A stretch of 41,786 nt of DNA from Thermodesulfovibrionales bacterium (GCA_035686305.1 DASRZP010000075.1:1-41786); one strand, 5' to 3'. Positions 1-36,466 are shown, numbered from the stretch's first letter. Translations and numbers: made by a program. The notes: generated by a model from the sequence alone, not told the origin.

Positions 1-311
1 GAGTGATCTACCGTCGTTTATTGCTGCTGTTCTGTCCAAAGTGCACATTCTCCAAGGAGGTCATATAAGAGGTAAGTAAGAAAATACGCTCTTGACAGGT
101 TTAATACATATCAGTGTAGTGAGTCCAACGCTTCTTTACATATGTTTGACTGCATTTGGTGTCATTCCCGCGTAGGCGGGAATCCAGGCGCCCTTGTTTT
201 CCAAAGAAAATGGATTCCCGATTACTACTTCGGGAATGACGGGCAAGGAACTTTACGACGTTTCTTATGTAAAGGGACTTCTGAATCATTACACTAGATC
301 TTCGACTCATC
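1..311. other. gene-poor flank, no supported gene
   Basis: No convincing complete gene lies here. A short open frame runs from the window edge to a TAA at 77-79 (plus strand) and could be the last 25 codons of a gene starting outside the window; this is too short to judge. A sigma70-like pair TTGACA (92-97) and TGTAGT (115-120), 17 nt apart, points rightward but leads into nothing recognisable. The rest is the inverted repeat at 161-240, followed by AT-rich sequence and the terminator of the leftward cytochrome operon. Confidence 0.5.
161..240. repeat. REP-like paired inverted repeat, copy 1
   Basis: GTCATTCCCG opens the element and CGGGAATGAC closes it, with a second pair (CGGGAATCCA and TGGATTCCCG) inside. 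The element therefore folds as two short hairpins or as one long imperfect stem. A related copy with the same arms lies at 35146-35211. Elements of this look are scattered in the intergenic DNA of many proteobacterial and Nitrospirota-like genomes. No coding capacity is seen, and no transposase is nearby. Confidence 0.75.
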
Positions 312-346
312 AAAAGAGAAGGCCCCGGATCTTCCGGGGCCTTCTC
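312..346 (-). terminator. intrinsic terminator of the cytochrome operon
   Basis: A perfect 14-bp stem (316-329 with 333-346) with a 3-nt loop is followed on the minus strand by TTTT (complement of 312-315). It lies 20 bp after the stop codon of the haem lipoprotein gene, where the end of the leftward operon is expected. Confidence 0.85.
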
Positions 347-366
347 GCTCGACACAGAATGAGCAG

Positions 367-2514
367 TTACTGACCAGGGCCATAGACCGTTGCCGGTCTT
401 GTCCCCGCGGGCCTTGTTGCGCCGGCAAGGGGAGAGCCGTTCAGATCGGCGTAGGAATCGAGGAGCAGCTGGATGCAGTACTTGTAGTTGTGAACAGCTG
501 CCGAGGCGTTCGGTACAAGAAGCTGAGAGGTCGCAGCAGAGGGAAGCCCCTTGACAATGAACTGGAGATTAAAGGTTGCCTTGTAGGCAGGAGGGGTCCA
601 GGCCGTGAAGGCATTTGCAGATGTATGGGGCAGGCCGGCCTTGAAGGCATAGGGGTAATTGAGGTCATCGTACTCGATTCCCTTCGTCTTGAGCAGGGCG
701 ACGAGCTTGTTTTCGAGGGACTGGATGGATTGAGCGATGGAAAGCGTCTGTCCATTCGGATCTCCGGTATAGTTGTTGGTATCGAAATTCGCACGATAGG
801 TGTCAACGTCAGGAGAGGCCGTCCCTGATTCCGCAGCTACGGCATTGAAGCTGCCGTGACAGGATGAGGTATTGCAACTCACCACATTCGGGTTCCATGA
901 ATGGCCGCCGTTCTTGTTATCAGCGGTAGGATTACTCATATGGCAGGTTATGCAATTTGCGGTCTGATGGGCCTCATTGACGCTGTAAGACTTGCCGGTG
1001 TATTCGTAGGCGTTCGCGCCCCACAGCATCGCGCCGGTACCAAGATAATGGGGATTGAAAAAGCTTCCGGTGATGGTCTTGCCAGGAGCGAGTTTTGTCT
1101 TGTACAGCGTATAGCCGCTCTCCCTTCCCTGATGGCAGTAAACGCAGATAGTCGCATTCTTCGTCTTGTCGAGGGGAACGGGCTGAGTGTCGAGGAATAC
1201 ATTCCCTGTGATCGTGACGCTGCTTGTAGAATAGTTCGTCATGATTACCGGCTGACGGGTATTCTTGCTCTGCGTCCCGACATTGGTATGGGGATCGTGG
1301 CAGGTCACACAGGTTACCGGCTCATCACCAAAGACCACTGGCGCAGAAGACGTACCTTGAACATTATCCTGGTATGCTATCGAAGTGAGGCCGTTATGGC
1401 ATTTGTAGCAAGGGAAATTGTCATTGCTGCCGACACCGACGGGTACCGCTGCGTTCTGCTTCGTGCTTGCAGTGGCTCCCTTTTGCCCGCCTCCACCGGT
1501 ATTGCTCCCCAGCGCCATATCATAGGGCCAGAGGCTCTGGTGACCGGCATCTGCAGTCGTGTAGTTTTTCCCCGTATTCGGATTCACATACGCCGTCGGA
1601 TTGGCTGAGAATTCGGCAAAGGCAGGGGCATTGCGTTCGCCATGGGCCGAACCTCGCCACTGGGTATAGATGTCCTGCTGATGAGTCGGGCCTCCACTGT
1701 TCAGATAGTTCCCCCTGGTATGACATGGGGAACAGACCCGTTCGGCGCCCAGTTCGTTATTCGTTCCGACGACCCTTGTGATGTCGACGGTGCCGTCAGC
1801 CTGGACTGCCCCGTTTGGCTGAAAGATGAAGCCGGCAAAGGGAGACCCGGTCTTGCTCTGTGCGCCCGTAGAATCTACGACGTAGTTGCGAAAGACAGGG
1901 TATCCTACCGGTGCGCTTCTCTGGGGAACAGACACCTTAAACTCCGGCTCATGGGCATTATGGCAGGACGCACAGGAGACTGTCGGGTTCGGCAGGTTGT
2001 TCGGATCCGGTTTGGCAAGAGAGCCGTCACTGTTGAAAACGAAACGCTGGCTCGAGTTGTGGCAGACAGAACATTCCTGGATATGCTGGGGTGTGCTGAC
2101 AGGAGTAGGAATCTGCGAGAAGGTGCTGTCCGGTATCTTGTTCGCATTGGCATGCGCTGTCGCATTGAATCCGGTGAAGCCGTGACAGGCATTGCACTGG
2201 TCAGCCTGAGGGTTGGGGAAAGGTATGGGACCGACTCCCCAGTGCAGGCTCGCGGGACCGTGGCAGTTCTCGCACTGAACGTTGCCGTCAGTGGTGTGGG
2301 TGGTCGCTGCCCAAGCAGGCGCGATCTGCGTTCCCGTGACATCTACGGTCGTCGCATGACAGGTATTGGTACAGCTTTCCGAGCCGACTTTTGTTGCGGT
2401 CTCGAGGGGCGGCTGCGGGCCTGCTTCCTTTGTGCCGCTCCCGCAACCAGCGAGGAAAAACAATGCCACGAGTAACAATGCTGAACAGACTAGGACCCGA
2501 GATCTCTTGGTCAT
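367..2514 (-). CDS. outer-membrane multihaem c-type cytochrome lipoprotein
   Basis: Protein of 715 residues. The start at 2514 is chosen over an in-frame ATG 21 codons earlier because AAAGGAGGT sits just before it and the product then begins with a clean lipoprotein signal (basic n-region, hydrophobic core, LAGC lipobox with Cys24). Nine canonical CXXCH haem sites are visible. In addition there is CX3CH (Cys48-Cys52-His53) near the N-terminus and CX4CH near residue 550, so up to eleven haems are possible. Many extra His residues could be distal ligands. It is the last gene of a barrel, periplasmic cytochrome, lipoprotein cytochrome operon. This architecture matches porin-cytochrome conduits, in which the lipoprotein sits on the outer face and passes electrons to external acceptors. 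The acceptor cannot be read from the sequence. The multihaem lipoprotein call is firm; surface exposure is inferred. Confidence 0.9.
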   Translation of the reverse strand: MTKRSRVLVCSALLLVALFFLAGCGSGTKEAGPQPPLETATKVGSESCTNTCHATTVDVTGTQIAPAWAATTHTTDGNVQCENCHGPASLHWGVGPIPFPNPQADQCNACHGFTGFNATAHANANKIPDSTFSQIPTPVSTPQHIQECSVCHNSSQRFVFNSDGSLAKPDPNNLPNPTVSCASCHNAHEPEFKVSVPQRSAPVGYPVFRNYVVDSTGAQSKTGSPFAGFIFQPNGAVQADGTVDITRVVGTNNELGAERVCSPCHTRGNYLNSGGPTHQQDIYTQWRGSAHGERNAPAFAEFSANPTAYVNPNTGKNYTTADAGHQSLWPYDMALGSNTGGGGQKGATASTKQNAAVPVGVGSNDNFPCYKCHNGLTSIAYQDNVQGTSSAPVVFGDEPVTCVTCHDPHTNVGTQSKNTRQPVIMTNYSTSSVTITGNVFLDTQPVPLDKTKNATICVYCHQGRESGYTLYKTKLAPGKTITGSFFNPHYLGTGAMLWGANAYEYTGKSYSVNEAHQTANCITCHMSNPTADNKNGGHSWNPNVVSCNTSSCHGSFNAVAAESGTASPDVDTYRANFDTNNYTGDPNGQTLSIAQSIQSLENKLVALLKTKGIEYDDLNYPYAFKAGLPHTSANAFTAWTPPAYKATFNLQFIVKGLPSAATSQLLVPNASAAVHNYKYCIQLLLDSYADLNGSPLAGATRPAGTRPATVYGPGQ

Positions 2515-2577
2515 TCCTACCTCCTTTTGTAACATTGGCAGCATAGTATCTTTACCTCCTTCAGAAGTTATTATCAT

Positions 2578-3354
2578 TTAAGGCACCGTCAGATGACATT
2601 TGAGGCATGTCTGGTTCTCGTTGGCACTCCCGAGCCTCCCTTTGCTCCGGTACCAATTTCTCGGGTGAGGGTTGACCCTGAGGCCGCTCACGGCGCTGTG
2701 GCACTTCAGGCATACCTGCCCGTCGGAATGGCAGGACTGACAAGAAGTGAGGTTTTTTCTCGCTTCCCTTGCATGTTCTGCAGACCACCGATTCACAGGC
2801 ACGAGGCTGTTGGGGTGACATGTCGGACACTGGGCAGTGTTGAAAACAGAATGGTTCGGGCCACCCTGCTTGACATCGATGTCGGAAAAGCCCCTTCTAT
2901 GAGACAAAACCATCAAATCATTGGGATTGAATTTGTTGTGGCATGCCTGACAGAAGGCCTTTGCATCGTGGCAGCGATAGCAGCCCCTGCCGGGGTCATC
3001 AGCAGCTTTTATCGGATGGATTTCTTTCCAGTCGGTGCGGTGGGATTTCGGCATGTAATCGGCTCCAAATGTGGAGACATGGAGATCAGCGTCTATGCCT
3101 CCTCCCTGGTGACAGTCGAGACAGAAAGACTGCTGGTGGCAGTCCTTGCAGTTGTTCGGATATTTCTCGGCATACAGCCGGTGCTCCTTCACCCATAACG
3201 GGCCATGGTTGGGAGTGACGTTGTTGAGCGTATGGCACTCGTTGCAGGCCTTGATCTCCATCCCTGTTGAGTAATCGGTATGCCTGGTGACCGACCAGGC
3301 GAGAGAACTGTACAGGAGAGAGAGAGCTATGAAGATGAATATCTTTTTTGTCAC
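2578..3354 (-). CDS. periplasmic nonahaem c-type cytochrome
   Basis: 258 residues with a GTG start; AAAGGAGG lies 5-6 nt before it. An N-terminal signal peptide (about residues 1-21, ending near AWS) sends it to the periplasm, and there is no lipobox. Nine CXXCH motifs are present, several in close pairs (CKDCH/CLDCH, CYRCH/CQACH, CQSCH/CLKCH), about one haem per 28 residues. Such packing is typical of wire-like periplasmic electron carriers. It lies 15 bp after the barrel gene and 63 bp before the lipoprotein cytochrome gene, so the three are almost certainly cotranscribed. By position it would be the component that plugs the barrel from the periplasmic side, like MtrA or the Geobacter Oma proteins. 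No specific orthologue is claimed. Confidence 0.9.
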   Translation of the reverse strand: MTKKIFIFIALSLLYSSLAWSVTRHTDYSTGMEIKACNECHTLNNVTPNHGPLWVKEHRLYAEKYPNNCKDCHQQSFCLDCHQGGGIDADLHVSTFGADYMPKSHRTDWKEIHPIKAADDPGRGCYRCHDAKAFCQACHNKFNPNDLMVLSHRRGFSDIDVKQGGPNHSVFNTAQCPTCHPNSLVPVNRWSAEHAREARKNLTSCQSCHSDGQVCLKCHSAVSGLRVNPHPRNWYRSKGRLGSANENQTCLKCHLTVP

Positions 3355-3369
3355 ACTTTCCTCCTTTCT

Positions 3370-4596
3370 CTACAGGTTCCAGTTCAGACTGACCCGTCCC
3401 AGCGTTCTGTTGTTAAAGCTCTCATTGACATCGTCCTCGATCCTGGCGACGAGCGAGAGGTTCTTGTTCAGAATCCACTGGCCGCCTGCCCAGTACCGCC
3501 GGGCGTAACTGTTTCCATCCTGGTCGGGTCTCATGTAGGCGTCATACTGGACACCCGCGGCGAGGAGGAACTTTTTGTTGATCTTATAATCTGCAGTAAC
3601 CTCGAAACCCCACGTTTTTCCGCCGTACCCATCCCGGCGGTCGAAAGAGGCATTAACCGTAAGATTCTTCATCGGGAGGATTTTGGTTCCCACGATAAAG
3701 TTGTTAGCGGTCTCGCTGCCTTCATACGTCTGGCGGGCATAGGAAGCAAAGGGTGTTAACGGCACGTTGTCGAAACTGTATTCGGCACGCACGAGGTATT
3801 CACGGTATTGGTCGACGGCGAAGACACTGTAAATCGACGTGGAATCAAAGGTCGGGAATGACTGATAGAATTCTCCCTTGATCATGAGATTGCTCATGGG
3901 GAAGATGTCGACCCCTACCGTTGCCTCATCGAAGACCTTTGAGAGTCTGTCGTATCTCACTTCCGCGTATGGACTGAGATACCGGTAAGAGTATCTGAAG
4001 TTCAAACCGAATTCTTCCCGGGCGACGTACCAGTCATCGTATTTCCTCACGTAGCTGATTCCGAGCTGCGTTGCCTTGATACCTTCCAGGTGAACGTCGA
4101 CCCCGACAAAGTAATTTCCGAGGCGGGACTGCTCCGAGTCGAGGCTGAACACGACGTCTCTGCCGCCGGCCAGGGTGATTCCAACAGGGCCGAGCTTATG
4201 GACTGAGAGTGTTGCCCCGTCCATGAGCGATGAGCCCGCAGAGAAGTTCACATACTGTCTCCCGAGCCGCAACGAAGTGTTTTCAATAGGGAGGACGACG
4301 TCGAGGTAAAGGTAGTAAAGTCTCCCCTGGAGACCATTCTCCCGGATCGCCCCGCTGTCAAAGGCATCGGTGAGCCTTCCGTATCCCGCGAGTGCGATCT
4401 TTGAATTTTCGGGATTGTAGCTCAACCTCAGGTACTGAGCGAGAATAGCCTGGCTCCTGTCCAAGTCATCAACACCCCACAAAAACTGTGTCGATGAAGT
4501 CATCTTGAACGGTTCTGCCGACGCTGCCGTGGCGACGATGAAACAGAGGAGCATGCTACAGGCAAACAAAAGGGACCATCGAAGAACTTCCCTCAT
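3370..4596 (-). CDS. outer-membrane beta-barrel (porin-like) of the cytochrome conduit
   Basis: 408 residues; ATG preceded by AAAGGAGG. A signal peptide (about 1-27, ending ATAASA) precedes a mature part made of alternating hydrophobic and polar residues with many aromatic girdle residues (runs such as RLYYLYLDV, NFRYSYRYLSPYAEVRY, YWAGGQWIL), typical of transmembrane beta-strands. The protein ends in NWNL rather than the usual terminal Phe, a mild oddity. No enzyme motif is seen. It is first in the operon, directly ahead of two multihaem cytochromes, the layout of Geobacter-type porin-cytochrome clusters. The barrel call is strong; that it sheathes the nonahaem protein is inferred from gene context. 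It could alternatively be an ordinary porin cotranscribed with cytochromes. Confidence 0.85.
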   Translation of the reverse strand: MREVLRWSLLFACSMLLCFIVATAASAEPFKMTSSTQFLWGVDDLDRSQAILAQYLRLSYNPENSKIALAGYGRLTDAFDSGAIRENGLQGRLYYLYLDVVLPIENTSLRLGRQYVNFSAGSSLMDGATLSVHKLGPVGITLAGGRDVVFSLDSEQSRLGNYFVGVDVHLEGIKATQLGISYVRKYDDWYVAREEFGLNFRYSYRYLSPYAEVRYDRLSKVFDEATVGVDIFPMSNLMIKGEFYQSFPTFDSTSIYSVFAVDQYREYLVRAEYSFDNVPLTPFASYARQTYEGSETANNFIVGTKILPMKNLTVNASFDRRDGYGGKTWGFEVTADYKINKKFLLAAGVQYDAYMRPDQDGNSYARRYWAGGQWILNKNLSLVARIEDDVNESFNNRTLGRVSLNWNL

Positions 4597-4765: not shown

Positions 4766-4794
4766 ATAATATCTTAGAGAACATCATCTGTCAA
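4766..4794 (-). promoter_or_regulatory. sigma70-type promoter of the porin-cytochrome operon
   Basis: On the minus strand TTGACA (4794-4789) and TATTAT (4771-4766) are separated by 17 nt, one mismatch from consensus overall. Transcription would start near 4759, giving a leader of about 160 nt before the barrel start. No GEMM (c-di-GMP or cAMP-GMP) riboswitch core such as CGCAAAGC is present in this leader. The rest of the 4597-4942 gap shows nothing else recognisable. Confidence 0.65.
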
Positions 4795-5584: not shown

Positions 5585-6178
5585 TCACTTGACCTGTTTC
5601 CTTTTCTCCTCCATCTGAACGTCAAGGGCCTTCAGTTGATCGACCGTCTCTCTCAGTTCTCTGTTCTCTTTTTCTTTCTTCTTCTCGGCTTCTCGCAGCT
5701 CTTTTTCTGACTCTCTTAGTTCTCTATTCTCTTTTTCTCTCTTCTTCTCCGCTTCCTTCAGTTCCTTCTCAGACCTGACGAGGTGATCGATTCTCTGCTT
5801 CAGTCCGTCCATTTCATTCTCCAATTTCCTCAGTTCCCGCAGCAGGGCGAGCCAGTTCGCTATCTCATAATCCTTGACCTTTTCGGGTTTCAGAGAGACA
5901 TAGGTCTCAAGCTCTCTCAGTGCAAGAGAATAATCGGGGGAGGGGTTATTATACGAAGAATAGAGCACGGCAAGCTGAAGGTGTGCCGCGGCGCGTGTCG
6001 AAGGATCGCCGTGGCCTTGCGCTATCCCGTCCAGCCGTCGAATCTCTCCCGCGAATTCGCCTGGCTTTATTGTGGCTTTGAGACTCGTACTTTCTCTCGT
6101 TACGGGGGCACAATGAGAGAGAGCGAGCACTGCGAATGAGATGGCAAATACCACTGTCCTTTTTCTCTTTTCAGTCAC
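5585..6178 (-). CDS. putative lipoprotein with TPR-like segment and repeated coiled coil
   Basis: 197 residues, GTG start; the nearest purine-rich sequence (AAAGG) is about 12 nt upstream. The N-terminus is basic then hydrophobic, with Cys23 in LSHC; His before the Cys is unusual for a lipobox, so lipidation is likely but not certain. Residues about 64-105 look like a tetratricopeptide helical pair. Residues 112-195 are a highly charged coiled coil containing a 21-residue unit repeated almost exactly (136-156 and 157-177). The gene lies 24 bp downstream of the HAMP-GGDEF gene on the same strand, so the two probably form an operon. Such pairs recall envelope lipoproteins that work with a membrane sensor (for example QseG with QseE), but no homology is claimed. 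Confidence 0.75.
   Translation of the reverse strand: MTEKRKRTVVFAISFAVLALSHCAPVTRESTSLKATIKPGEFAGEIRRLDGIAQGHGDPSTRAAAHLQLAVLYSSYNNPSPDYSLALRELETYVSLKPEKVKDYEIANWLALLRELRKLENEMDGLKQRIDHLVRSEKELKEAEKKREKENRELRESEKELREAEKKKEKENRELRETVDQLKALDVQMEEKRKQVK
5648..5773 (-). repeat. 63-bp in-frame tandem duplication
   Basis: Two consecutive 63-bp units encode nearly identical 21-residue coiled-coil segments beginning SEKEL and ending NRELRE. Differences are mostly Lys/Arg swaps. Being a multiple of three, the unit can expand or contract without breaking the frame, changing the length of the coiled-coil stalk. Confidence 0.85.
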
Positions 6179-6202
6179 GACGAAGAATACCTTTCACGTC
6201 TC

Positions 6203-7642
6203 TCAATGCTCCTTCCTCCTCTTGTTGACAACGTAAACACTTCCCGGAAGGTCCTTTGCATATTCCTTCAGCTCGGCAGCGAGTTCGCCCACCTGGATGT
6301 GGCTTGTGAGCTCGAAATCCCTGTTCGTGACTACAGCGATTGAGATCGTCATAAAGGGAAAGCGCGCCTCCTGTCCCTGCCGGGTCTTTCCGTTGATATA
6401 TCCCCTCTCCCTGTCTTCAGGGTCATAAAACTCCGGTATCGTTTTGTCAAAGAGGCCGATGATTGCAGTACATATATCCCGGTACCGGTCAGGGGTCGTG
6501 ATGACGACAAAATCATCTCCGCCGATATGGCCCACAAAGTCATCGCCGGTCCCGCAATCGGCAACTGACTTCTCCACAATCCGTGCGGTCGTTTTCAGGA
6601 CCTCGCTGCCCCTGGCGTATCCGTAGCGATCGTTGAACGCCTTGAAGTCGTCAATATCCAAATGACAAAATGCCAGGGGATCACCCGCTTCAACCCGCTC
6701 GCTGAGCACATTCTCTATCGCGATGTTTCCTGGAAGTCTTGTGAGGGGACTCGCGTCGAGGCACTTCACCTCCATTTGTTTCAGCCTTTTCGCCATATCC
6801 CGAAAGGCATGAAAAAGCTCTCCCAATTCGTCCTGGTTCTTTATCTCAGGAACGGAGTCGAATCTTCCTTCCGAGATTTCCTTTGTAGCGTTCTTCAGAC
6901 TGGACAGAGGGTCCGCAATACTCTTCGTTATCAGAAACGACGCAATTATGCCGGCGAGAATACTGACAACACAGAGTATTGCCGTGACCCTGAAGGCCGT
7001 TGCGCCGATCTGTGAGGTGAGGAGGGTTTTTTCACGCTGGGCACTACGGGCCTTAAGAGAAATCTCTTTGATCAGGCTTATGAGCTCTTCCTGGCGATTT
7101 CTGATTTCCCTGTCGTACCTCACTCCCTGAGGGGAGGAAGGAGGCGCCAAGGAAAGCATGCTCTCCGTAAAGAGATCGCTGTATTCAGCGTGGAGGGTCG
7201 CCAGGCGGTCCAGGGGGACCTCCTGAAGGTCCGGCAGACCGCGTATCCCATTATAGAGATTCTCGAACTCCCTGCTCTTTTCCTTGAAGAGGGCCATGGT
7301 CTCCGGGCTCTTGAGGATGCTGTATCGTCGTGCGTAAAGCTCCTGGGAGAGAAGGACATCGATCATCTTTTCCGACGTTTCTATCAGGGATATATCCGTC
7401 CTTATGACACTTCGGTTAATATCGTTTAGCCGTTCAAGACTCCAGAGGCTGAAGACGGCGACAGCGAGGAGCAGAACATAGAGCGTGAGGTAACCGAGGA
7501 AGAGTTTTCTTGCGATCGTGAGACGGAGAAAGGGGAGAAAGACTCTTGCGAAGGGAGAGCCATCTTCGTCCGATGCGGCGTCAGCATACGGCATCTTCGT
7601 AAGTGTTCTCTTTCCTGAGAAAGGTTCGGCCAAGGGAGTCAC
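6203..7642 (-). CDS. membrane sensor with HAMP and GGDEF domain (possible Hypr-type cyclic dinucleotide synthase)
   Basis: 479 residues from a GTG that directly follows the stop of the isomerase gene; an ATG at 7594 is an alternative start. Order: TM1 about 48-68, helical periplasmic sensor about 70-215, TM2 about 217-238, HAMP about 239-292, GGDEF domain about 295-470. The signature is GGDDF (374-378), with DIDDFKAFND at 329-338. The guanine-contacting Asn is present (Asn337), but the partner nine residues on, Asp in PleD-type enzymes, is Ser346 (GYARGSEVL). Asp-to-Ser at this position is the known marker of Hypr GGDEF enzymes that make cAMP-GMP. The RxxD inhibitory site is missing (TGDD occupies its place). 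It belongs to a GGDEF branch with a LPGN motif at the domain start and a GYINGK insertion. It is cotranscribed with the lipoprotein downstream. Product specificity is untested, and catalytic weakness is also possible. Confidence 0.85.
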   Translation of the reverse strand: MTPLAEPFSGKRTLTKMPYADAASDEDGSPFARVFLPFLRLTIARKLFLGYLTLYVLLLAVAVFSLWSLERLNDINRSVIRTDISLIETSEKMIDVLLSQELYARRYSILKSPETMALFKEKSREFENLYNGIRGLPDLQEVPLDRLATLHAEYSDLFTESMLSLAPPSSPQGVRYDREIRNRQEELISLIKEISLKARSAQREKTLLTSQIGATAFRVTAILCVVSILAGIIASFLITKSIADPLSSLKNATKEISEGRFDSVPEIKNQDELGELFHAFRDMAKRLKQMEVKCLDASPLTRLPGNIAIENVLSERVEAGDPLAFCHLDIDDFKAFNDRYGYARGSEVLKTTARIVEKSVADCGTGDDFVGHIGGDDFVVITTPDRYRDICTAIIGLFDKTIPEFYDPEDRERGYINGKTRQGQEARFPFMTISIAVVTNRDFELTSHIQVGELAAELKEYAKDLPGSVYVVNKRRKEH

Positions 7643-8071
7643 TCACAGGATCTCGAGAAGTGTCGTATCGAATATCAGGGTCTTTCCGGCGAGGGGATGG
7701 TTGTAATCCATGGTAAAGGAGGTTTCTGATATTTTGATCACCGTTCCCATAACAGGAAGGCCGTCAGCACGATACAATTGCAACTGCTTGCCGACCTCGG
7801 GGTGAAAACCTTCCGGCACCCTCTTCTTATCGAGTTCGCAAACGCGTTCCTTTCTGTGAGGGCCATAGGCCTGCTCCATCCCTATCCTGATGGACCGTGA
7901 TTCACCGGTGGTCATGCCGATCACTCCCTTTTCGAGTCCGGCGACTACCTCTCCTTCCCCGACGGTAAACTCGAGAGGCCTGTCGGCTGCCGAGGAATCG
8001 AAGATGGTGCCGTCCTCGAGTTTTCCTATGTATTCGATTCTGATCGTGTCTCCTTCTTTCACTGCAGTCAT
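7643..8071 (-). CDS. FKBP-type peptidyl-prolyl isomerase, SlyD-like
   Basis: 142 residues. The start at 8071 (MTAVKEGDTIRIEY) has GGAGG 8 nt upstream and replaces a longer open frame without ribosome site. The FKBP core shows KLEDGTIFDSS, PLEFTVGEGEVVAGLEKGVIGM and a C-terminal HPLAGKTLIFD. The central insertion (about residues 70-120) is the insert-in-flap of SlyD-type proteins, which adds chaperone activity. The His/Cys-rich metal-binding tail of E. coli SlyD is absent. It probably acts in the cytoplasm, as there is no signal peptide. Its stop codon abuts the GTG of the GGDEF gene, so those genes may be one transcript. Confidence 0.9.
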   Translation of the reverse strand: MTAVKEGDTIRIEYIGKLEDGTIFDSSAADRPLEFTVGEGEVVAGLEKGVIGMTTGESRSIRIGMEQAYGPHRKERVCELDKKRVPEGFHPEVGKQLQLYRADGLPVMGTVIKISETSFTMDYNHPLAGKTLIFDTTLLEIL

Positions 8072-8191
8072 TGATCGCTCCTCCGTTACCTGTACAACTG
8101 TTAGTGTTATTGTATCATATCCATTCGGAAGGGATTTTCTTCGTGCCCATGACATGCTATGATAGACCTCATGACGCGGTAATGCTGCGCT

Positions 8192-9085
8192 ATGTCAACG
8201 ACAGAAGAGAGAAACCCCAAATCAGGGAACATCGATGTCCTCGCTGTAGAGCGGGTGCTTGAGCTGATGAACGAGGAGGACGCTGCCGTCATTCATGCGG
8301 TCAGGGCCGCCATCCCTTCTCTTGCGAAGGCCGTGGAAGAGGCTGTATCGGCGATCAGAAGGGGCGGGAGAATATTCTATGTCGGGGCCGGGACGAGCGG
8401 AAGGATCGGTCTGATCGATGCAGCGGAAATGCCACCGACCTTCGGCGTGTCTCACGATCTTTTTCGTGCTGTGATCGCGGGAGGAGATGCTTCGATAAGG
8501 AAGTCCGTTGAAGGCGCTGAAGATGACGTAGATGCCGGAAGGGATAGTGCATTTTCTGTCACGAGTAAGGACATGGTCATCGGGATATCGGCAAGCGGGA
8601 GGGCTCCCTTTGTCCTGGCCTTCCTCGATACGGCAAGAAAACGCGGTGCAAGGACATGGTTGATGACCTGCAACAGGACGGAGATGCCACTCTTCCTTGA
8701 CGACTCTACGATGGTTATGCCTGACGGAATCGTCGAGGTCGTCACCGGACCTGAGGTGATCGCCGGATCCACACGGCTGAAGGCGGGGACCGCCGCAAAG
8801 CTCGTTCTCAATATGTTCTCCAGCGCAACTATGATCAGGATCGGAAAGGTTTACAGGGGATTGATGGTTGACGTTGTCCCCTCGAACAAGAAGCTTGTTC
8901 AGAGGGCTGAGGGAATCATCATGGAAATAACAGGCTGCACCAGGGAAGAGGCCGGCCGATACCTCAGGCTGGCCGAGATGAGGCCGAAGGTGGCAATCGT
9001 TATGAAAGCGAGGGGGGTGTCAAAGGAAGAAGCCTGGGATCTCCTCAGAAATTCCGGCGATTCCCTCAGGGAGATTCTCGGATAA
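8192..9085 (+). CDS. murQ: N-acetylmuramic acid 6-phosphate etherase
   Basis: 297 residues. It cleaves the lactyl ether of MurNAc-6-phosphate to give GlcNAc-6-phosphate and D-lactate in cell-wall recycling. A SIS domain carries YVGAGTSGRIGLIDAAEMPPTFG and the later GISASGRAPF sugar-phosphate loop. TEERNPKSGNID at the N-terminus and the C-terminal helices (CTREEAGRYL) match the family over its full length. No clear Shine-Dalgarno precedes the ATG. It is monocistronic, divergent from the isomerase gene across 120 bp. Its last 20 bp overlap the 3' end of folP on the other strand. Confidence 0.95.
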   Translation: MSTTEERNPKSGNIDVLAVERVLELMNEEDAAVIHAVRAAIPSLAKAVEEAVSAIRRGGRIFYVGAGTSGRIGLIDAAEMPPTFGVSHDLFRAVIAGGDASIRKSVEGAEDDVDAGRDSAFSVTSKDMVIGISASGRAPFVLAFLDTARKRGARTWLMTCNRTEMPLFLDDSTMVMPDGIVEVVTGPEVIAGSTRLKAGTAAKLVLNMFSSATMIRIGKVYRGLMVDVVPSNKKLVQRAEGIIMEITGCTREEAGRYLRLAEMRPKVAIVMKARGVSKEEAWDLLRNSGDSLREILG

Positions 9086-9920
9086 TCCCGCTCTTGATCG
9101 CGTCTGCAACCTTTGCCACCCTGGCCATCTCTTTCACGTCGTGAACACGGACGATATGGGCTCCGTTAAGAATCGCGATAGCCACTGCCGCAGCAGTGCC
9201 TTCAACGCGGTCGGAGGGTGGGGCGCCTGCCAGTACCTTCCCTATGAAGGCCTTTCGTGAAGGGCCCACGAGAAGAGGTTTCCCGAGGCGTGAAAATTCG
9301 CCGAGGTTCCCGAGAATCTCGAGATTGTGTTCGAAGGTCTTGCCGAAACCAATGCCCGGATCAAGAATTATGCTCTCTTCCCGAACCCCAGCTTCCACAG
9401 CAAGCCTGATGCCCTCCCTGAGATAATCCATAATCTCCGGTATCAAGGCATCATAGACCGGATTGACCTGCATGTTTTTCGGCGTTCCCCGGATGTGCAT
9501 GATCACGAGCGGCACGTTATAGTCGGCAACGATCTTCGGCATTTCCGGATCAAAGCGCAGGCCGCTGATGTCATTGACGATTGACGCCCCGGCATCGAGC
9601 GCCCTTCTTGCTATAGCCGACTTATAAGTGTCTATGGATATCGGTATCGGTAATTTCTTTGCCAGGGCCTCGATAACAGGGATGGTCCTCCTCAATTCTT
9701 CCTCAATCGGCGGCGCTTCAGAGCCAGGCCGTGTAGATTCCCCGCCGATATCGATGATGTCCGCACCGTCTTCGACAAGCCTGAACCCGCGCTCGATCGC
9801 GGCGTCTCTGTCGAAAAAAGCGCCGCCATCGGAAAATGAATCGGGCGTCACATTCAGGATGCCCATGATGTGGGTCTTCCTTGAGAGATCAAGCTTGTAC
9901 TTGGACCATTCGAGTATCAT
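9066..9920 (-). CDS. folP: dihydropteroate synthase
   Basis: 284 residues. It condenses p-aminobenzoate with hydroxymethyl-dihydropterin diphosphate in folate synthesis and is the sulfonamide target. Family signatures are plain: GILNVTPDSFSDGG near the N-terminus, DIGGESTRPGS, IDTYKSAIARRAL, NDISGLR, DPGIGFGKT, GPSRKAFIG and a C-terminal RVHDVKEM. The length is normal. The start lacks a strong ribosome site (weak GAAG). In many bacteria folP directly follows ftsH; here both are on the minus strand but 3.3 kb apart, separated by the M48 protease gene and an opposite-strand insert that looks foreign. Confidence 0.96.
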   Translation of the reverse strand: MILEWSKYKLDLSRKTHIMGILNVTPDSFSDGGAFFDRDAAIERGFRLVEDGADIIDIGGESTRPGSEAPPIEEELRRTIPVIEALAKKLPIPISIDTYKSAIARRALDAGASIVNDISGLRFDPEMPKIVADYNVPLVIMHIRGTPKNMQVNPVYDALIPEIMDYLREGIRLAVEAGVREESIILDPGIGFGKTFEHNLEILGNLGEFSRLGKPLLVGPSRKAFIGKVLAGAPPSDRVEGTAAAVAIAILNGAHIVRVHDVKEMARVAKVADAIKSGIIRESP

Positions 9921-10024
9921 GTGTCTTCGTTATTAGTCAATCTTCCGACCTTCCGTTATGTGTCGGTAGAAAGCAAATTTGGAACATACTAACCCATTAA
10001 ATAGGGTGGTTTCAAGGGCCGGAC

Positions 10025-10357
10025 TTGTTGGATCAAAAGCAATTTGACACAAGGTTGCATTGCTTCTATAATGCAATCAAATGCAGAAGAAATTCAATAA
10101 TAGCTGTTCCCGTCGCGCTGGCGCGCTTGATTCGCGCGACTGAACAATCCGTTCGAGCACGGCACAGCACCTACATTGAGTCCTTCGGCCTCCAGCAAGC
10201 TCGCGCTAACGTCATAGTCATAGGCGGCTTTATTGAAAGGCGGTATACCTTCACAGGGGAAGATGGCAAACAATACGAAATTGAGATTTCTGACAGTACA
10301 GTAAATACAGCAAAATCGATAATCCAAAATATCATAGATTCATACCAATGGATGTGA
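10025..10357 (+). CDS. hypothetical protein, possible integron cassette gene
   Basis: Up to 110 residues from a TTG; the true start is uncertain and no strong ribosome site is seen. No family is recognised. The N-terminal half is basic; the C-terminal half (RYTFTGEDGKQYEIEIS, then a helix ending DSYQWM) reads like a real small folded protein. Codon choice is mixed, with many A/T-ending codons unlike the genes on either side. The TGA lies 19 bp before an attC-like site, exactly where the gene of an integron cassette would end. It may be a genuine cassette gene or a decayed remnant. Confidence 0.45.
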   Translation: MLDQKQFDTRLHCFYNAIKCRRNSIIAVPVALARLIRATEQSVRARHSTYIESFGLQQARANVIVIGGFIERRYTFTGEDGKQYEIEISDSTVNTAKSIIQNIIDSYQWM

Positions 10358-10376
10358 AAGAAAAGAACTCAATCGG

Positions 10377-10451
10377 GGTTAACAATTTACTCTAGGCGAC
10401 GCTGGGGATTGGCTGCTTTGAGCCCCGCGTCCTTGAGCATTGTCGTTAGGC
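10377..10451 (+). other. attC-like integron recombination site
   Basis: A 75-bp element ends in the canonical core GTTAGGC (10445-10451) and begins with GGTTAAC (10377-10383), one mismatch from RYYYAAC. Between them lies an imperfect palindrome: CTCTAG (10390-10395) with CTTGAG (10432-10437), GACGC (10398-10402) with GCGTC (10427-10431), GGGG with CCCC, and unpaired GC (10396-10397) and T (10403) on one arm only. One-sided extrahelical bases of this kind are what integrase reads in folded attC sites. Beginning AACAATT and ending TTGAGC plus the core, it resembles attC sites of aadA-type cassettes. No integrase gene is in the window. Confidence 0.7.
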
Positions 10452-10495
10452 GCCGCACTGATCTCAAACAAACCACCATAAAGGGGAGGTTCATG

Positions 10496-11920
10496 ATGGC
10501 AGACATACGAATTATCACGACAAGTCGCTCGGAAAAGGTGATTAAGGAAGTCGCCGTCGAAGCCTTCAGAGCCGGTCTTCGAGGCGAACTCCTCACGCCT
10601 GACTCTGCAGGCTATCACGAGGCGCGGAGGATCTGGAACGCCATGATCGACCGCAGGCCAGCGCTGATCGCCCGATGCACGTCGCCTGAAGATGTTGTCC
10701 AGGCCGTAAAGTTCGCGCGCAAGCACGACCTCCTTGTCTCGATTCGAGGGGGCGGCCATAACATCGCGGGCAATGCCGTCTGCGACGACGGCCTCATGAT
10801 CGACCTCTCGCTGATGAAGCGCGTCCAAATTGACCTGAACGCGCGCCGGGCGACCGTCGAGCCCGGCTGCACCCTTGCCGACTTCGACGCGGCCGCGCAG
10901 GCGCACGGTCTCGCCACGCCGTTGGGCATCAACTCGACCACGGGCATGGCCGGCCTGACGCTCGGCGGCGGCTTCGGGTGGCTGAGCCGGAAGTACGGCA
11001 TGACCATCGACAACCTGCTCTCTGCCGATGTCGTCACGGCGGATGGCAATCAAGTGCATGCCAGCGAAACGGAAAACGATGACCTCTTCTGGGGGCTCCG
11101 TGGTGGAGGCGGGAACTTCGGTATTGTCACCAGCTTCGAGTTCCAGCTCCATCACGTTGGGCCGGGAGTGCTGAGCGGGTTCATCGTCTTCCCCTTCGAC
11201 CAGGCAAAGTCAGTGCTCAGGCAGTTCGCCCGTTTCACCGAGACGATGCCGGACGAGCTCAACGTCTGGATGATCACCCGGAAGGCTCCCCCGCTGCCCT
11301 TCCTGCAGAAGGACGTCCACGGGAAAGAGATCGTCGTGCTCGCACTGTGCTATGCGGGTGAACCGACTGAGGGCGAAAAGCTGATCGAGCCGCTGCGCGG
11401 GTTCGGCACAGCGCACGGCGAACACATCGGTGTTCAGCCGTACACCGCGTGGCAGCAGGCCTTCGATCCGCCCTTGACACCGGGCGCTCGCAACTACTGG
11501 AAGTCGCACAACTTCTCGAAGCTCAGCGACGGCGCGATCGACGTCATCATCGAATACGCCGGCACGCTGCCGTCACCGCAGTGCGAGATCTTCGTCGGCA
11601 CGATCGGAGGCCAGACGGCCCGCATAGCGCCCGAGGCGATGGCCTACTCAAGTCGGGATGCCAATTATGTGATGAACGTGCACGGCCGCTGGGAGTCGGC
11701 CGCCGAGGATGAGCGCTGTATCGCCTGGGCGCGCGAGTTCTTCGCCAAGGCACAACCTTTTGCCAGCAGCGGAGCGTACATCAACTTCCTGACCCAGGAA
11801 GAGACCAACCGCATCGCCTTCGCCTACGGTGCGGCGTACAATCGGCTGGTGGCGCTCAAGAAGAAATACGACCCGACGAACATCTTCCGGATGAACCAGA
11901 ACATCAAGCCTTCGGTCTGA
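10496..11920 (+). CDS. FAD-dependent oxidoreductase, PCMH/berberine-bridge type
   Basis: 474 residues. Of two adjacent ATGs (10493, 10496) the second has the better spacing (6 nt) from GGGGAGG. The N-terminal PCMH FAD-binding domain shows VSIRGGGHN, whose His is the usual covalent FAD attachment, then GCTLADFDAAA and LTLGGGFGWLSRKYG. The second covalent site (Cys) of bicovalent enzymes is replaced by INSTTG, so flavin attachment is probably single. A C-terminal BBE segment (YNRLVALKKKYDPTNIFRMNQNI) is complete. Relatives oxidise sugars, alkaloids or other alcohols; the substrate here is unknown. The gene is markedly richer in G/C-ending codons and CGC arginine than all neighbours and starts 45 bp after the attC-like site, which suggests horizontal transfer. 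Confidence 0.9.
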   Translation: MADIRIITTSRSEKVIKEVAVEAFRAGLRGELLTPDSAGYHEARRIWNAMIDRRPALIARCTSPEDVVQAVKFARKHDLLVSIRGGGHNIAGNAVCDDGLMIDLSLMKRVQIDLNARRATVEPGCTLADFDAAAQAHGLATPLGINSTTGMAGLTLGGGFGWLSRKYGMTIDNLLSADVVTADGNQVHASETENDDLFWGLRGGGGNFGIVTSFEFQLHHVGPGVLSGFIVFPFDQAKSVLRQFARFTETMPDELNVWMITRKAPPLPFLQKDVHGKEIVVLALCYAGEPTEGEKLIEPLRGFGTAHGEHIGVQPYTAWQQAFDPPLTPGARNYWKSHNFSKLSDGAIDVIIEYAGTLPSPQCEIFVGTIGGQTARIAPEAMAYSSRDANYVMNVHGRWESAAEDERCIAWAREFFAKAQPFASSGAYINFLTQEETNRIAFAYGAAYNRLVALKKKYDPTNIFRMNQNIKPSV

Positions 11921-11954
11921 GGACAGAAAGGGGCTCTGACACCCCGCCGGGATT

Positions 11955-13247
11955 TTATTCCTGTGTCACCATGCTGTGTATCTCCCTCACCCGTTGTACC
12001 ACCGGCGGATGGGAGTAATAGAATGCTGCATACAGGGGATGGGGATGGAGGTTCGAGAGGTTGTCCTTCGAAAGTTTTATGAGCGATGTTGCCATCGCCC
12101 CGGGATTCCCCGTTATTACGGCTGCAAACCCGTCGGCCTCCCTTTCATGCTTCCGTGAGAGATAACTCATGAGGGGCGTGAAGGGAAACGCGACGATGCC
12201 TCCGATAAAGCCGAGGATGAGGAGGCTCGCAAAGATGGTGTTGTGCCGAAGTGCGAAAAGATCGTTCAGGAAACCGGTCCCGATTATTCGGAAGGAGAGG
12301 TACAGGCCGATGAATGAAAGGGCCTCTACCATCACGATGTGCTTCAGGATATGTCTCTTCTTCCAGTGGCCCGCTTCGTGGGCCAGGACCGAAAGGATCT
12401 CTTCCCTGTCCAATTTCTCGAGGAGCGTATCAAAGAGGATGATGCGCTTTACCCTGCCGATGCCGGTAAAATAGGCATTGGTGTGGCGGCTCCTCTTCGA
12501 CGCGTCGATGCGAAAAATCCTGCTGACCATGATCCCGGCCTTTTTCATGAGCTCCTTGATCGGACCTTCCAGGGTCTCGTCATCGAGGGGAGTGAATTTG
12601 TTGAAGAGGGGTTCGATAACATAGGGCGAGATATACATGATGAGGAGACTGAAGACGAGGAAAAAGAGCCACACAATAAACCACCAATGTTCCGGGCTCA
12701 TGGTGATGATAAAGAATGCCGATGCCGTCATGGTGCCGAGAAGTATGGTGGTAAGGCCTATGGATTTCAGAAAATCGCTGACCCACAATCTCCCTGTCAT
12801 GGTGTTGAAGCCGTACTTGTTCTCTATCCTGAAGTCGCTGTAAAGGTCAAAGGGAATCGAGAGTATGGTCTTTGCATAGGTCAGGAAGAGGAAGAAGAGC
12901 GTTCCCGAGACAACGGAGTTCTGATTGAGGGAGACGATCCACGAGTTATAGGTATTGAAGAGCCCCCCGAAGAAGAAGAAGAGGATGACAATACTATCCA
13001 AAGCAATCGACTCGATGATGCTGAAACGGCTGTGCTCGACGGTATAATCCCTCGTCTTCTTCAGCACGTCCCTGTCGATGTAATCCGAGAATTCCAGGGG
13101 AACAACATCACCGTATTGTTTCAGGTGTCTCAGATTAAGGATCTGGAGCCAGTAACCAAAGGATGCGACGAAGAGGTAGGCGAGAAGAAGAATGATCAGC
13201 ATAGGCGAAAGGGAAAGATCGACCGGAATAAACCCTTTATACCGCAA
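11955..13247 (-). CDS. M48 family membrane metalloprotease, STE24/CAAX-protease type
   Basis: 430 residues from a TTG that overlaps the end of ftsH by 11 bp; an ATG at 13202 is an alternative but has no ribosome site. Several transmembrane helices (about 17-37, 80-100, 112-132, 165-185, 188-210, 310-355) frame a cytoplasmic or in-membrane zinc site HEAGH (290-294), with the downstream third ligand in HEREADGFA. The N-terminal PF16491-like half is present, so it resembles the eukaryotic Ste24 prenyl protease family rather than short HtpX. Its bacterial role is probably membrane-protein quality control, consistent with translational coupling to FtsH. A second M48 protein (HtpX) is encoded at 28.3 kb. 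Confidence 0.9.
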
Positions 13248-15072
13248 CCTCTTCGCTGCTGCCGGCCTTCGTCTGCTCCTTCCCGTTCACCTGAGCAATG
13301 AGGGCATCAATTTCGGAAGCATCGAGGGTCTCCTTATCGAGCAGGGCTCTTGCAAAGGCTTCGAGGATGTTGTAGTTCGATACGAGGAGTTTCTTCGATT
13401 CGTCGTATGCATCGGTAACAATGCCCCTCACCTCTTCATCGATCTCTTCGGCAATCTTCTCGCTGTAATCCTTGTGCTTTGCTATCTCCCTGCCGAGAAA
13501 GATCTGTTCGTCCTTCTTGCCGAAGGTGAGGGGCCCCAGTTTCTCGCTCATCCCCCATTCCGTGACCATTCTCCTTGCGAGGTCAGTCGCGCGCTCTATG
13601 TCGTTCCCCGCGCCCGTTGTCATATGGTGGAGGGCGATCTCCTCAGCCGCTCTTCCGCCCATGAGAACCTTTATCGTCTTGAGGAGATGGTCCTTGGAGT
13701 ACGTATACTTGTCATCAATGGGAAGTTGCTGCGTCACTCCCAGCGCCCTGCCGCGCGGTATGATGCTCACCTTGTGGATTGGGTCTGTCCCCGGGGTCAG
13801 CCTTGCCACAAGTGCGTGACCGGCCTCGTGATAAGCCGTATTGGTCTTTTCTGCTTCGCTGATGATCATGCTCTTACGCTCGACTCCCATGAGGACCTTG
13901 TCCTTTGCGGACTCAAAGTCCAACATCTCGACCTTGCTCTTTGACTGCCTTGCTGCAAGGAGGGCAGCCTCATTTACGAGGTTTGCGAGATCTGCCCCGG
14001 AAAAGCCCGGTGTCCCCCTCGCTATAAGATCGAGATTCACCTTCTCGTCAAGGGGGATCTTCTTGGTGTGGACCTTGAGGATTTCCAGCCTTCCCTTTAC
14101 GTCAGGCGCTGGAACAACCACCTGCCTGTCAAACCTTCCGGGCCTCAAAAGGGCAGGATCGAGGACGTCGGGCCTGTTCGTCGCAGCGATAATGATCACG
14201 CCTTCAGTACCTTCGAACCCGTCCATCTCAACGAGGAGCTGGTTAAGGGTCTGTTCCCGTTCATCGTGCCCGCCTCCGAGACCGGCGCCTCTGTGCCGTC
14301 CCACAGCGTCGATCTCGTCTATGAACACAATGCAGGGCGCGCTCTTCTTGGCCTGCTCAAAGAGGTCCCTCACCCTCGAAGCACCGACTCCCACGAACAT
14401 CTCGACAAAATCCGATCCTGAAATACTGAAAAAGGGGACACCCGCTTCGCCTGCAATAGCCTTGGCAAGGAGGGTCTTTCCCGTACCGGGAGAGCCGACG
14501 AGCAAAACCCCCTTCGGGATCTTCCCTCCGAGTTTCGAGAACTTCTGCGGGTCTTTGAGAAAGTCGATGATCTCCTGGACCTCTGCCTTTGCCTCCTCCA
14601 CACCGGCAACGTCGGCAAACGTAAGCTTTACAGCCTTGTTCGATATAAGGCGTGCCTTGCTCTTTCCAAAGGATAGCGCCCTGTTACCGCCGGTCTGCAT
14701 CTGGCGCATGAAAAAGATCCAGATGAGGGCTATGAAGATGATGGGGCCCCAGGAGATCAGGAAGTTGATGTACCAGGGATTCTGGTCGGGCGGCCTTGCC
14801 GAGATCTTGACACCCTTTGCCCTCAGGTCTTTGACAAGGTCAGGATATTCGGCAGAATAGGTCTTGAATTTCTTGCCGTCTTTCAACCGTCCTGTGATGT
14901 GGTTTTCCTTTATGACAACCTCTTCTACCTCGCCTTGGTCAACTTTTGCCATGAAATCAGAGAAGATCATCTCGTCTTCCATCTTCTGGGGCGTACTGAC
15001 GAGGTTAAAGAGGAGTATCATCATCAGGCCTATCAGCAACCAGATAAAGAGACTCCTGTAAACACCGCTCAA
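13237..15072 (-). CDS. ftsH: ATP-dependent zinc metalloprotease FtsH
   Basis: 611 residues. A membrane-anchored AAA+ protease degrading misassembled membrane proteins and regulatory substrates. The start is TTG with GGAGG 10 nt upstream, and the product [11 protein letters not shown] aligns with the normal FtsH N-terminus. TM1 about 8-25, a small periplasmic domain, TM2 about 104-122, Walker A GSPGTGKT (193-200, Ser instead of the common Pro), Walker [10 protein letters not shown], second region of homology [20 protein letters not shown], zinc motif HEAGH and a C-terminal peptidase helix bundle. Complete length. It is followed by the overlapping M48 protease gene and preceded by rph 51 bp away on the same strand. 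Confidence 0.97.
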
Positions 15073-15123
15073 TGCTCAGCTACCTCCAAACGTATTATTT
15101 TGATTTTACCACACTCCCCATCC

Positions 15124-15861
15124 TTAAGCAAAGCCGATGGCCCCGGTTGAGCTGAGGGCCTCTTTCTGGATGGCGATCAGGTTCCTGATACCGCTCTCTG
15201 CAAGATCTATGAGGGCTTCAAGGTCCCTCTTAGAAAAAGGCGAGCCTTCAGCAGTCCCCTGAACCTCAACGAAATTGCCATTCCCTGTCATAACAACATT
15301 CATATCCACCTCTGCCGCGGAATCTTCCGAATAGCAGAGGTCAAGGAGGAGTTCACCATGGATGATCCCGACGCTGACGGCCGCGAGGTAGTCCCTGATA
15401 GGTGTCTTCAGGATCATCCCCTTGTCAAGGGCATAGTTCAGGGAATCGGCCATGCATATGAAGGCGCCGGTGATCGAAGCTGTCCGTGTTCCTCCATCCG
15501 CCTGAATGACGTCGCAGTCGATCCAGACCGTCCGCTCTCCAAGGGCCTCAAGGTCTACAACGGACCTGAGCGCCCTGCCGATGAGCCTTTGGATTTCATG
15601 GGTCCTCCCGCCTATCCTGCCCGAGACGGATTCCCTCATCATCCTCGTATGGGTCGACCTAGGGATCATCCCGTATTCCGCTGTGATCCAGCCCTTCTTC
15701 TGGTCTTTCAGGAACGGGGGGACCTTTTCCTCGATGGAAGATGCGCAGATGACTTTGGTATCCCCCATCTCGATAAGGACGGAGCCCTCCGCAGTCCTCA
15801 GGAAGTTCCGCGTTATCTTAACCTTCCTCAGTTCGTCGTTCTTTCTGCCGTCCTGCCTCAT
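15124..15861 (-). CDS. rph: ribonuclease PH
   Basis: 245 residues. A phosphorolytic 3'-5' exoribonuclease that trims tRNA 3' ends. Start [12 protein letters not shown], then the phosphate-binding region with [13 protein letters not shown] and [19 protein letters not shown], and the C-terminal [13 protein letters not shown], all typical of the family at normal length. ATG overlaps the murI TGA by one base (TGATG), and ATCGGAGGT inside the end of murI is its ribosome site, so translation is coupled. Confidence 0.97.
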
Positions 15862-35145: not shown

Positions 35146-35211
35146 GTCATGCCCGAAGTTCTTAGTCGGGCATCCATCCTTAAACTGGATTCCCGCCTCC
35201 GCGGGAATGAC
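35146..35211. repeat. REP-like paired inverted repeat, copy 2
   Basis: Begins GTCATGCCCG and ends CGGGAATGAC, with inner arms GGGCATCCA and TGGATTCCCG; the inner CCCGCCTCCGCGGG is a tight hairpin. Same family as 161-240. It lies inside the thi operon between thiG and the membrane-protein gene, where its hairpins could protect or attenuate the mRNA. Confidence 0.75.
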
Positions 35212-36338: not shown

Positions 36339-36370
36339 CAACCTTGATCGTCACGTTATGGGTTCCCATT

Positions 36371-36459
36371 CCCTACGCCAGCATTATCCGGATCAGGTTA
36401 GCAGGGTCTCTCCCGCAGTCATTGCGGAAGACTCTCAGGCTCTGAAGCCTCCCCCAGGG
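36371..36459 (-). promoter_or_regulatory. TPP riboswitch (THI element)
   Basis: Minus-strand sequence carries the conserved pyrimidine-sensor CTGAGAG and the diphosphate side ACCTGATCCGGATAATGC followed by GGCGTAGGGA; CCCT at the start pairs with AGGG at the end (P1). An extra hairpin (CCGCAATGACTGCGG) forms the variable P3a arm. TPP binding should favour the terminator just before thiS. Confidence 0.96.
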
Positions 36460-36466
36460 TAATTTG

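Follow-up and report, generated by a model that had tools for sequence, protein, structure and literature searches.

The three-gene operon at one end of the window, the 41,786-nucleotide stretch of Thermodesulfovibrionales DNA analysed here (GCA_035686305.1, DASRZP010000075.1:1-41786), very probably encodes a conduit of the porin-cytochrome kind that crosses the outer membrane. Its predicted products are a beta-barrel that would act as a sheath, a soluble nonahaem cytochrome (the wire) and a multihaem lipoprotein (the head). We favour this interpretation because the gene order is conserved, barrel and wire co-vary, the haem ligands of the wire form a complete set, the third genes encode lipoproteins, and OmcA/MtrC-family heads are present in three related loci. 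The short outer loops of the modelled 22-strand barrel and the fusion, in one locus (L099), of a wire-like part to c7-like repeats were also counted in its favour. Together these results support the extracellular electron conduit that had been proposed in a sequence-only reading of the same DNA.

In the literature found by a limited open-access search, marker profiles were the main basis for inferring that this part of Nitrospirota carries out extracellular electron transfer. The operon supplies a concrete and recurrent candidate conduit in a sulfur-metabolising lineage.

Table 1. Features of the candidate conduit operon, in window coordinates
Feature	Position	Strand	Details
Beta-barrel gene (conduit sheath)	3370..4596	-	408 aa; signal peptide about 1-27
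Barrel loop, residues 247-263 (FPTFDSTSIYSVFAVDQ)	3808..3858	-	conservation 0.91; low pLDDT
Soluble nonahaem cytochrome gene (wire)	2578..3354	-	258 aa; GTG start
Predicted multihaem surface lipoprotein gene (head, family I)	367..2577	-	9 CXXCH + CX3CH + CX4CH
Predicted sigma-70-like promoter, TTGACA-17-TATTAT	4766..4794	-	11/12 consensus positions; best in region
Predicted intrinsic terminator	316..346	-	14-pair stem, then T-rich tail; strongest found

The operon, its genome and its relatives

The three genes were all found on the minus strand in the order described from the sequence alone, and the near-consensus promoter and strong terminator of that description were recovered as well (Table 1). 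Neither promoter-like nor terminator-like sites were commoner in total than in shuffles (5 vs 3.9 and 5 vs 4.9, respectively); the two sites that flank the operon each stood at the top of their own list. The gap between barrel and wire genes is 15 bases, and the wire and lipoprotein reading frames abut. A 37-codon ORF in the leader, between promoter and barrel gene (4749-4636, minus strand; MATRLVEADISRLSGHLKVTHGVYGDIKEARRILADA), was rejected as a candidate, as it is not conserved upstream of relatives.

Judged by eye, a divergent methyltransferase-like ORF lies upstream and the remaining genes of the window are mostly housekeeping in appearance; the conduit operon stands alone, and no OrfR-like regulator was seen adjacent to it. 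Elsewhere in the window we observed two copies of a palindromic repeat, GTCATTCCCG-N5-GCGGGAATCC (161-185, plus strand, and 35187-35211, minus strand; 0.01 expected in shuffles), a TPP riboswitch (36353-36465, minus strand; 61 bits) upstream of thiamine-biosynthesis-like genes, and, amid housekeeping genes, a FAD-dependent oxidase-like ORF of 503 codons (10409-11920, plus strand).

The source genome, a member of Nitrospirota, is 97.7% complete in 147 contigs, and contains a single copy each of barrel and wire. It also encodes c7-type trihaem proteins (TIGR04257 at 82 and 86 bits, cut-off 40) and a dsrA matched at 530.7 bits. A second dsrA-like match, at 334 bits and below the cut-off, was located at G000:C73:8481-10597 with a weaker dsr-like match adjoining; the main dsrA is on C5. 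Among 296 genomes chosen to sample the phylum, 23 had a barrel homologue, and a profile detected one in 36 of 199 relatives. The distribution of these barrels in the phylum is patchy and extends over several families, with a Thermodesulfovibrio MAG as a close barrel relative among named genomes. No relative was found in the plasmid sequences searched.

With few exceptions, the barrel relatives were followed immediately downstream, on the same strand, by a homologous multihaem wire and then usually by another multihaem protein; a few of the compared loci end at contig edges. In a search of 396 genomes, a full-length wire was always beside a barrel in the cases examined. Nearly every relative examined has the same order of barrel and wire, which puts this unit far beyond chance. 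Relatives of the nonahaem class are about 35-66% identical. The departures from the usual order include a truncated duplicate barrel (L085), two barely related barrels (L100, L101) and L099, where the barrel is followed by a single 500-aa, 19-haem protein (6013-7515, minus strand) with no separate head nearby. In the latter protein, c7-like haem repeats are joined to a C-terminal part that resembles the wire.

The barrel and the wire

The barrel is predicted to carry a cleavable signal peptide (MREVLRWSLLFACSMLLCFIVATAASA, followed by EP). An AlphaFold2 model built with 25 relatives had 22 strands (pLDDT 82.9, pTM 0.71), and its inward-facing positions were more conserved than its outward-facing ones (0.70 vs 0.59). 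The outer loops reach 17 residues at most, and therefore no porin-type constriction loop is evident in the model; a barrel of this size would be a large hole if it were left without a plug. Loop 247-263 is much more conserved than barrel loops overall (mean 0.91 vs 0.60). By strand count it would lie on the outer side, possibly folded inward, and it probably touches the wire, because heads are exchanged among these loci while the wire stays constant.

Searches with known families gave little for the barrel. The window barrel scored 17.0 bits against a cut-off of 240.05 with the MtrB/PioB profile TIGR03509 and fell below the cut-off for DUF2490. PF11854 (MtrB/PioB) was matched by 3 of 25 barrel relatives, with a best E of 7.5e-4. 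The profile search of the source genome found no MtrB/PioB, and the NCBIfam search of the barrels returned no relevant match. Foldseek with the barrel model returned generic barrels only (TM up to about 0.5), and MtrB was absent among the best 50 matches. PDB profile searches gave nothing useful for the barrel, the wire or the pentahaem module described below.

The barrel might instead be an ordinary nutrient porin, and the two cytochromes respiratory proteins of the periplasm or cell surface, linked to it only by the operon. Such an arrangement would be consistent with the presence of OprD/Occ porins among the Foldseek matches and with the Porin_4 results. The window barrel scored 21.0 bits with this profile (below the cut-off of 27), and 9 of 25 relatives were matched, the best value, E 5e-8, coming from a single one; of the relatives scored individually, two gave 21.3 and 18.1 bits and eight others had no match. 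However, the modelled barrel has 22 strands rather than 16-18 and lacks a long constriction loop, and it adjoins and co-varies with the wire in nearly every relative, which makes a nutrient porin very improbable. Assignment of the barrel to a nutrient porin family, an outcome that would have counted against the sequence-only reading, did not occur.

The wire has nine CXXCH motifs, a cleavable signal peptide and no lipobox. Its motif count agrees with the nine haems previously read from the sequence. Alignment of 19 wires revealed, besides the nine CXXCH motifs, exactly nine further conserved histidines (25, 50, 58, 105, 113, 152, 168, 194 and 230), matching the need of nine bis-histidine haems. 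In three 8-haem wires (L033, the first copy in L038 and L045), the motif at 176-180 and His168 were lost together. These joint counts and losses point to a purely electron-carrying chain. The wire had no match to the DmsE/MtrA decahaem family (TIGR03508) at E up to 1, and has nine motifs rather than ten.

Cousin barrels, about 20% identical, have as their partner a separate pentahaem protein of about 150 aa, which frequently starts with a lipobox-like sequence. Because these pentahaem proteins align with the wire profile over about residues 1-140 (E 1e-16 to 1e-22), the nonahaem wire is, as judged from the alignments, modular, with a pentahaem module at about residues 25-140 and a tetrahaem module at about 145-258. 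In both the pentahaem- and the nonahaem-paired class, most barrels are about 400-450 residues long. When barrel and wire were modelled as one chain with AlphaFold2, reading through the TAG stop of the barrel, the barrel was modelled well and the wire had a low pLDDT of about 35-65 by block. A confident model that keeps the cytochrome out of the barrel, the other outcome that would have counted against the sequence-only reading, was thus not obtained.

Distances among barrels were strongly correlated with those among wires (r 0.83, Mantel p 0.0002), whereas the barrel-head correlation was close to zero (r 0.08, p 0.17). Shared vertical descent could partly account for the barrel-wire co-variation, although the head, encoded in the same operon, does not co-vary in this way. 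The barrel at first seemed to follow the part of the wire that holds haems 1-5 (0.83) more closely than the part with haems 6-9 (0.51), but this difference disappeared when the 8-haem variants and distant members were omitted, and the claim was rejected.

Putative surface cytochromes and their exchange

The likelier start of the lipoprotein is the ATG at about 2514, which follows AGGAGG and gives 715 aa, rather than 2577. From this start the N-terminus reads MTKRSRVLVCSALLLVALFFLAG and then CGSGTKEA, with the lipobox LAGC. The atypical haem motifs are CTNTCH and CNTSSCH. All eleven motifs are conserved in four orthologues except for one CXXCH that is lost in L036 (CYKYH), and thirteen further histidines are conserved in all five orthologues.

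Comparison of the third genes revealed three unrelated cytochrome families, all lipoproteins, with 8-13 CXXCH motifs. Family I, which includes the window head, has the motif set given in Table 1; family II has 8-13 CXXCH motifs. Family III (L032, L050 and L083) belongs to OmcA/MtrC, with TIGR03507 scores of 464-490 bits against a cut-off of 209, and a PDB search with one member found similarity to MtrF and OmcA. L083 comes from the same taxonomic family as the window, whose own head had no match to TIGR03507. In L038 two complete conduits lie in tandem (6498-15761); the first has an 8-haem wire and a family II head, and the second a 9-haem wire and a family I head. Orthologous clusters swap unrelated heads, OmcA/MtrC among them, which suggests a modular design where the base that crosses the membrane can be separated from the head that faces the substrate. 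This separability is directly testable and would be useful for engineering electroactive bacteria.

The unrelated head families, including those of the window, L032, L050 and L083, have a common lipid-anchored N-terminal tether of the CGSxx[KR] type. In every mature head compared the first residues are CGS, and the pattern CGSxx[KR][EDG] holds except in L042 and L043, where CGSG[YH]KAG is found instead. An additional head, that of L150, starts with CRSSTRE. A scan of the fetched DNA for the tether motif gave 16 other matches, all from loci with truncated copies of the same heads, and the motif was absent from the about 39 remaining lipoprotein-like N-termini. We hypothesise that the tether serves as a surface-export or docking signal, which makes it a candidate signal for lipoprotein surface display in Nitrospirota.

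These observations can be combined in a model of a head-exchange platform, to which we give somewhat less than an even chance. In this model, one barrel-wire base, unrelated to MtrAB by profile, takes three unrelated surface cytochromes including OmcA/MtrC; the shared tether acts in export or docking; and the wire has grown from five to nine haems by addition of the tetrahaem module without much change in barrel length.

Alternatively, the lipoprotein could work outside the cell as a reductase, e.g. of nitrogen or sulfur oxyanions, which the conduit would serve in place of a mineral-facing surface. The Shewanella DmsEF base, which serves an extracellular DMSO reductase, provides a precedent, and precedent only (PMC7198977). 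In the window head, however, the eleven motifs and thirteen further conserved histidines would suffice to give each haem two His ligands, no NCBIfam enzyme model matched over its cut-off, and OmcA/MtrC fills the same slot in relatives. We consider a reductase head improbable.

In the conduit that we propose, the 22-strand barrel would form an insulating sheath plugged by the nonahaem protein as a bis-histidine multihaem wire. The N-terminal pentahaem module would probably span the membrane, because it is the part shared with the stand-alone partners of cousin barrels, and the C-terminal tetrahaem module may lengthen the chain. The lipoprotein on the outer face would provide an exchange surface, swappable for unrelated heads. 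Electrons could thus pass between periplasmic carriers, such as the c7-type trihaem proteins of this genome, and an extracellular partner, e.g. an Fe(III) or Mn(IV) mineral, another cell or an electrode.

The same conduit might run inward and supply sulfate reduction with electrons taken up from Fe(II), a cathode or another cell. Surface cytochromes of the OmcA/MtrC family are best known from mineral reduction, and their presence in the head slot of three orthologous clusters argues against this direction, although the genomic evidence does not separate inward from outward flow. No feature of the operon fixes the direction, the genome has dsrA, and the OetABI conduit of sulfate-reducing ANME partners is thought to take up electrons (PMC10553843). 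We regard inward flow as possible but unlikely.

Comparison with known conduits

A close architectural parallel is with the porin-cytochrome (Pcc) complexes. According to a 2014 survey, Pcc barrels have 18-22 strands and their periplasmic cytochromes 5-14 haems; barrel and periplasmic cytochrome co-evolve, and the outer cytochromes are variable, unrelated and have atypical haem motifs (PMC4245776). Nitrospirota are not named among the species in the portion of that survey consulted here. The 22 strands and 9 haems found here fall inside both ranges, a likeness of architecture. As in Geobacter OmbB-OmaB-OmcB, the genes are ordered barrel, periplasmic multihaem cytochrome and multihaem lipoprotein (locations here being predicted from signals), the 8-9 haem wire stands beside the 8-haem OmaB, CX3-4CH motifs are confined to the outer cytochrome, and barrel and wire co-vary while heads vary. 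Unlike the Geobacter clusters as described there, most members here have nine haems rather than eight in the wire and no OrfR-like regulator lies adjacent to the operon.

With Shewanella MtrCAB the operon shares the principle of a barrel, a soluble wire and a surface cytochrome, and three relatives have an OmcA/MtrC head. It differs in the barrel, which does not match MtrB/PioB and has 22 strands in the AlphaFold2 model compared with 26 in MtrB (PMC7198977), in the 9-haem wire without a DmsE/MtrA match, and in the window head, which is not OmcA/MtrC. The earlier suggestion that the operon may not match the described types thus holds for Mtr, where barrel, wire, head and strand count all differ, but in architecture the operon falls inside the range published for Pcc.

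In Geobacter conduits the surface cytochrome is often replaced by a non-orthologous one, and in Ext a small pentahaem partner is encoded beside the barrel (PMC6148476). Judged from that description, the cousin conduits found here, with a barrel, a pentahaem protein often bearing a lipobox and a variable head, look like ExtABCD and ExtEFG, whereas the window wire is nonahaem and lipobox-free. Also likened by description are OetABI and OmcKL of the sulfate-reducing ANME partners, which combine a porin, a periplasmic cytochrome and an extracellular lipoprotein; these were described in Desulfobacterota, and Nitrospirota are unmentioned in that report (PMC10553843). Members of Thermodesulfovibrionia have been reported with DFE-type, OmcS and OmcZ markers (PMC8478452). 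As far as the literature from our limited open-access search shows, which leaves priority uncertain, the elements that set this conduit apart from the known systems are its occurrence in this Nitrospirota lineage, the modular wire of five to nine haems, the tether that the heads have in common and the combination of OmcA/MtrC heads with a base that is not Mtr.
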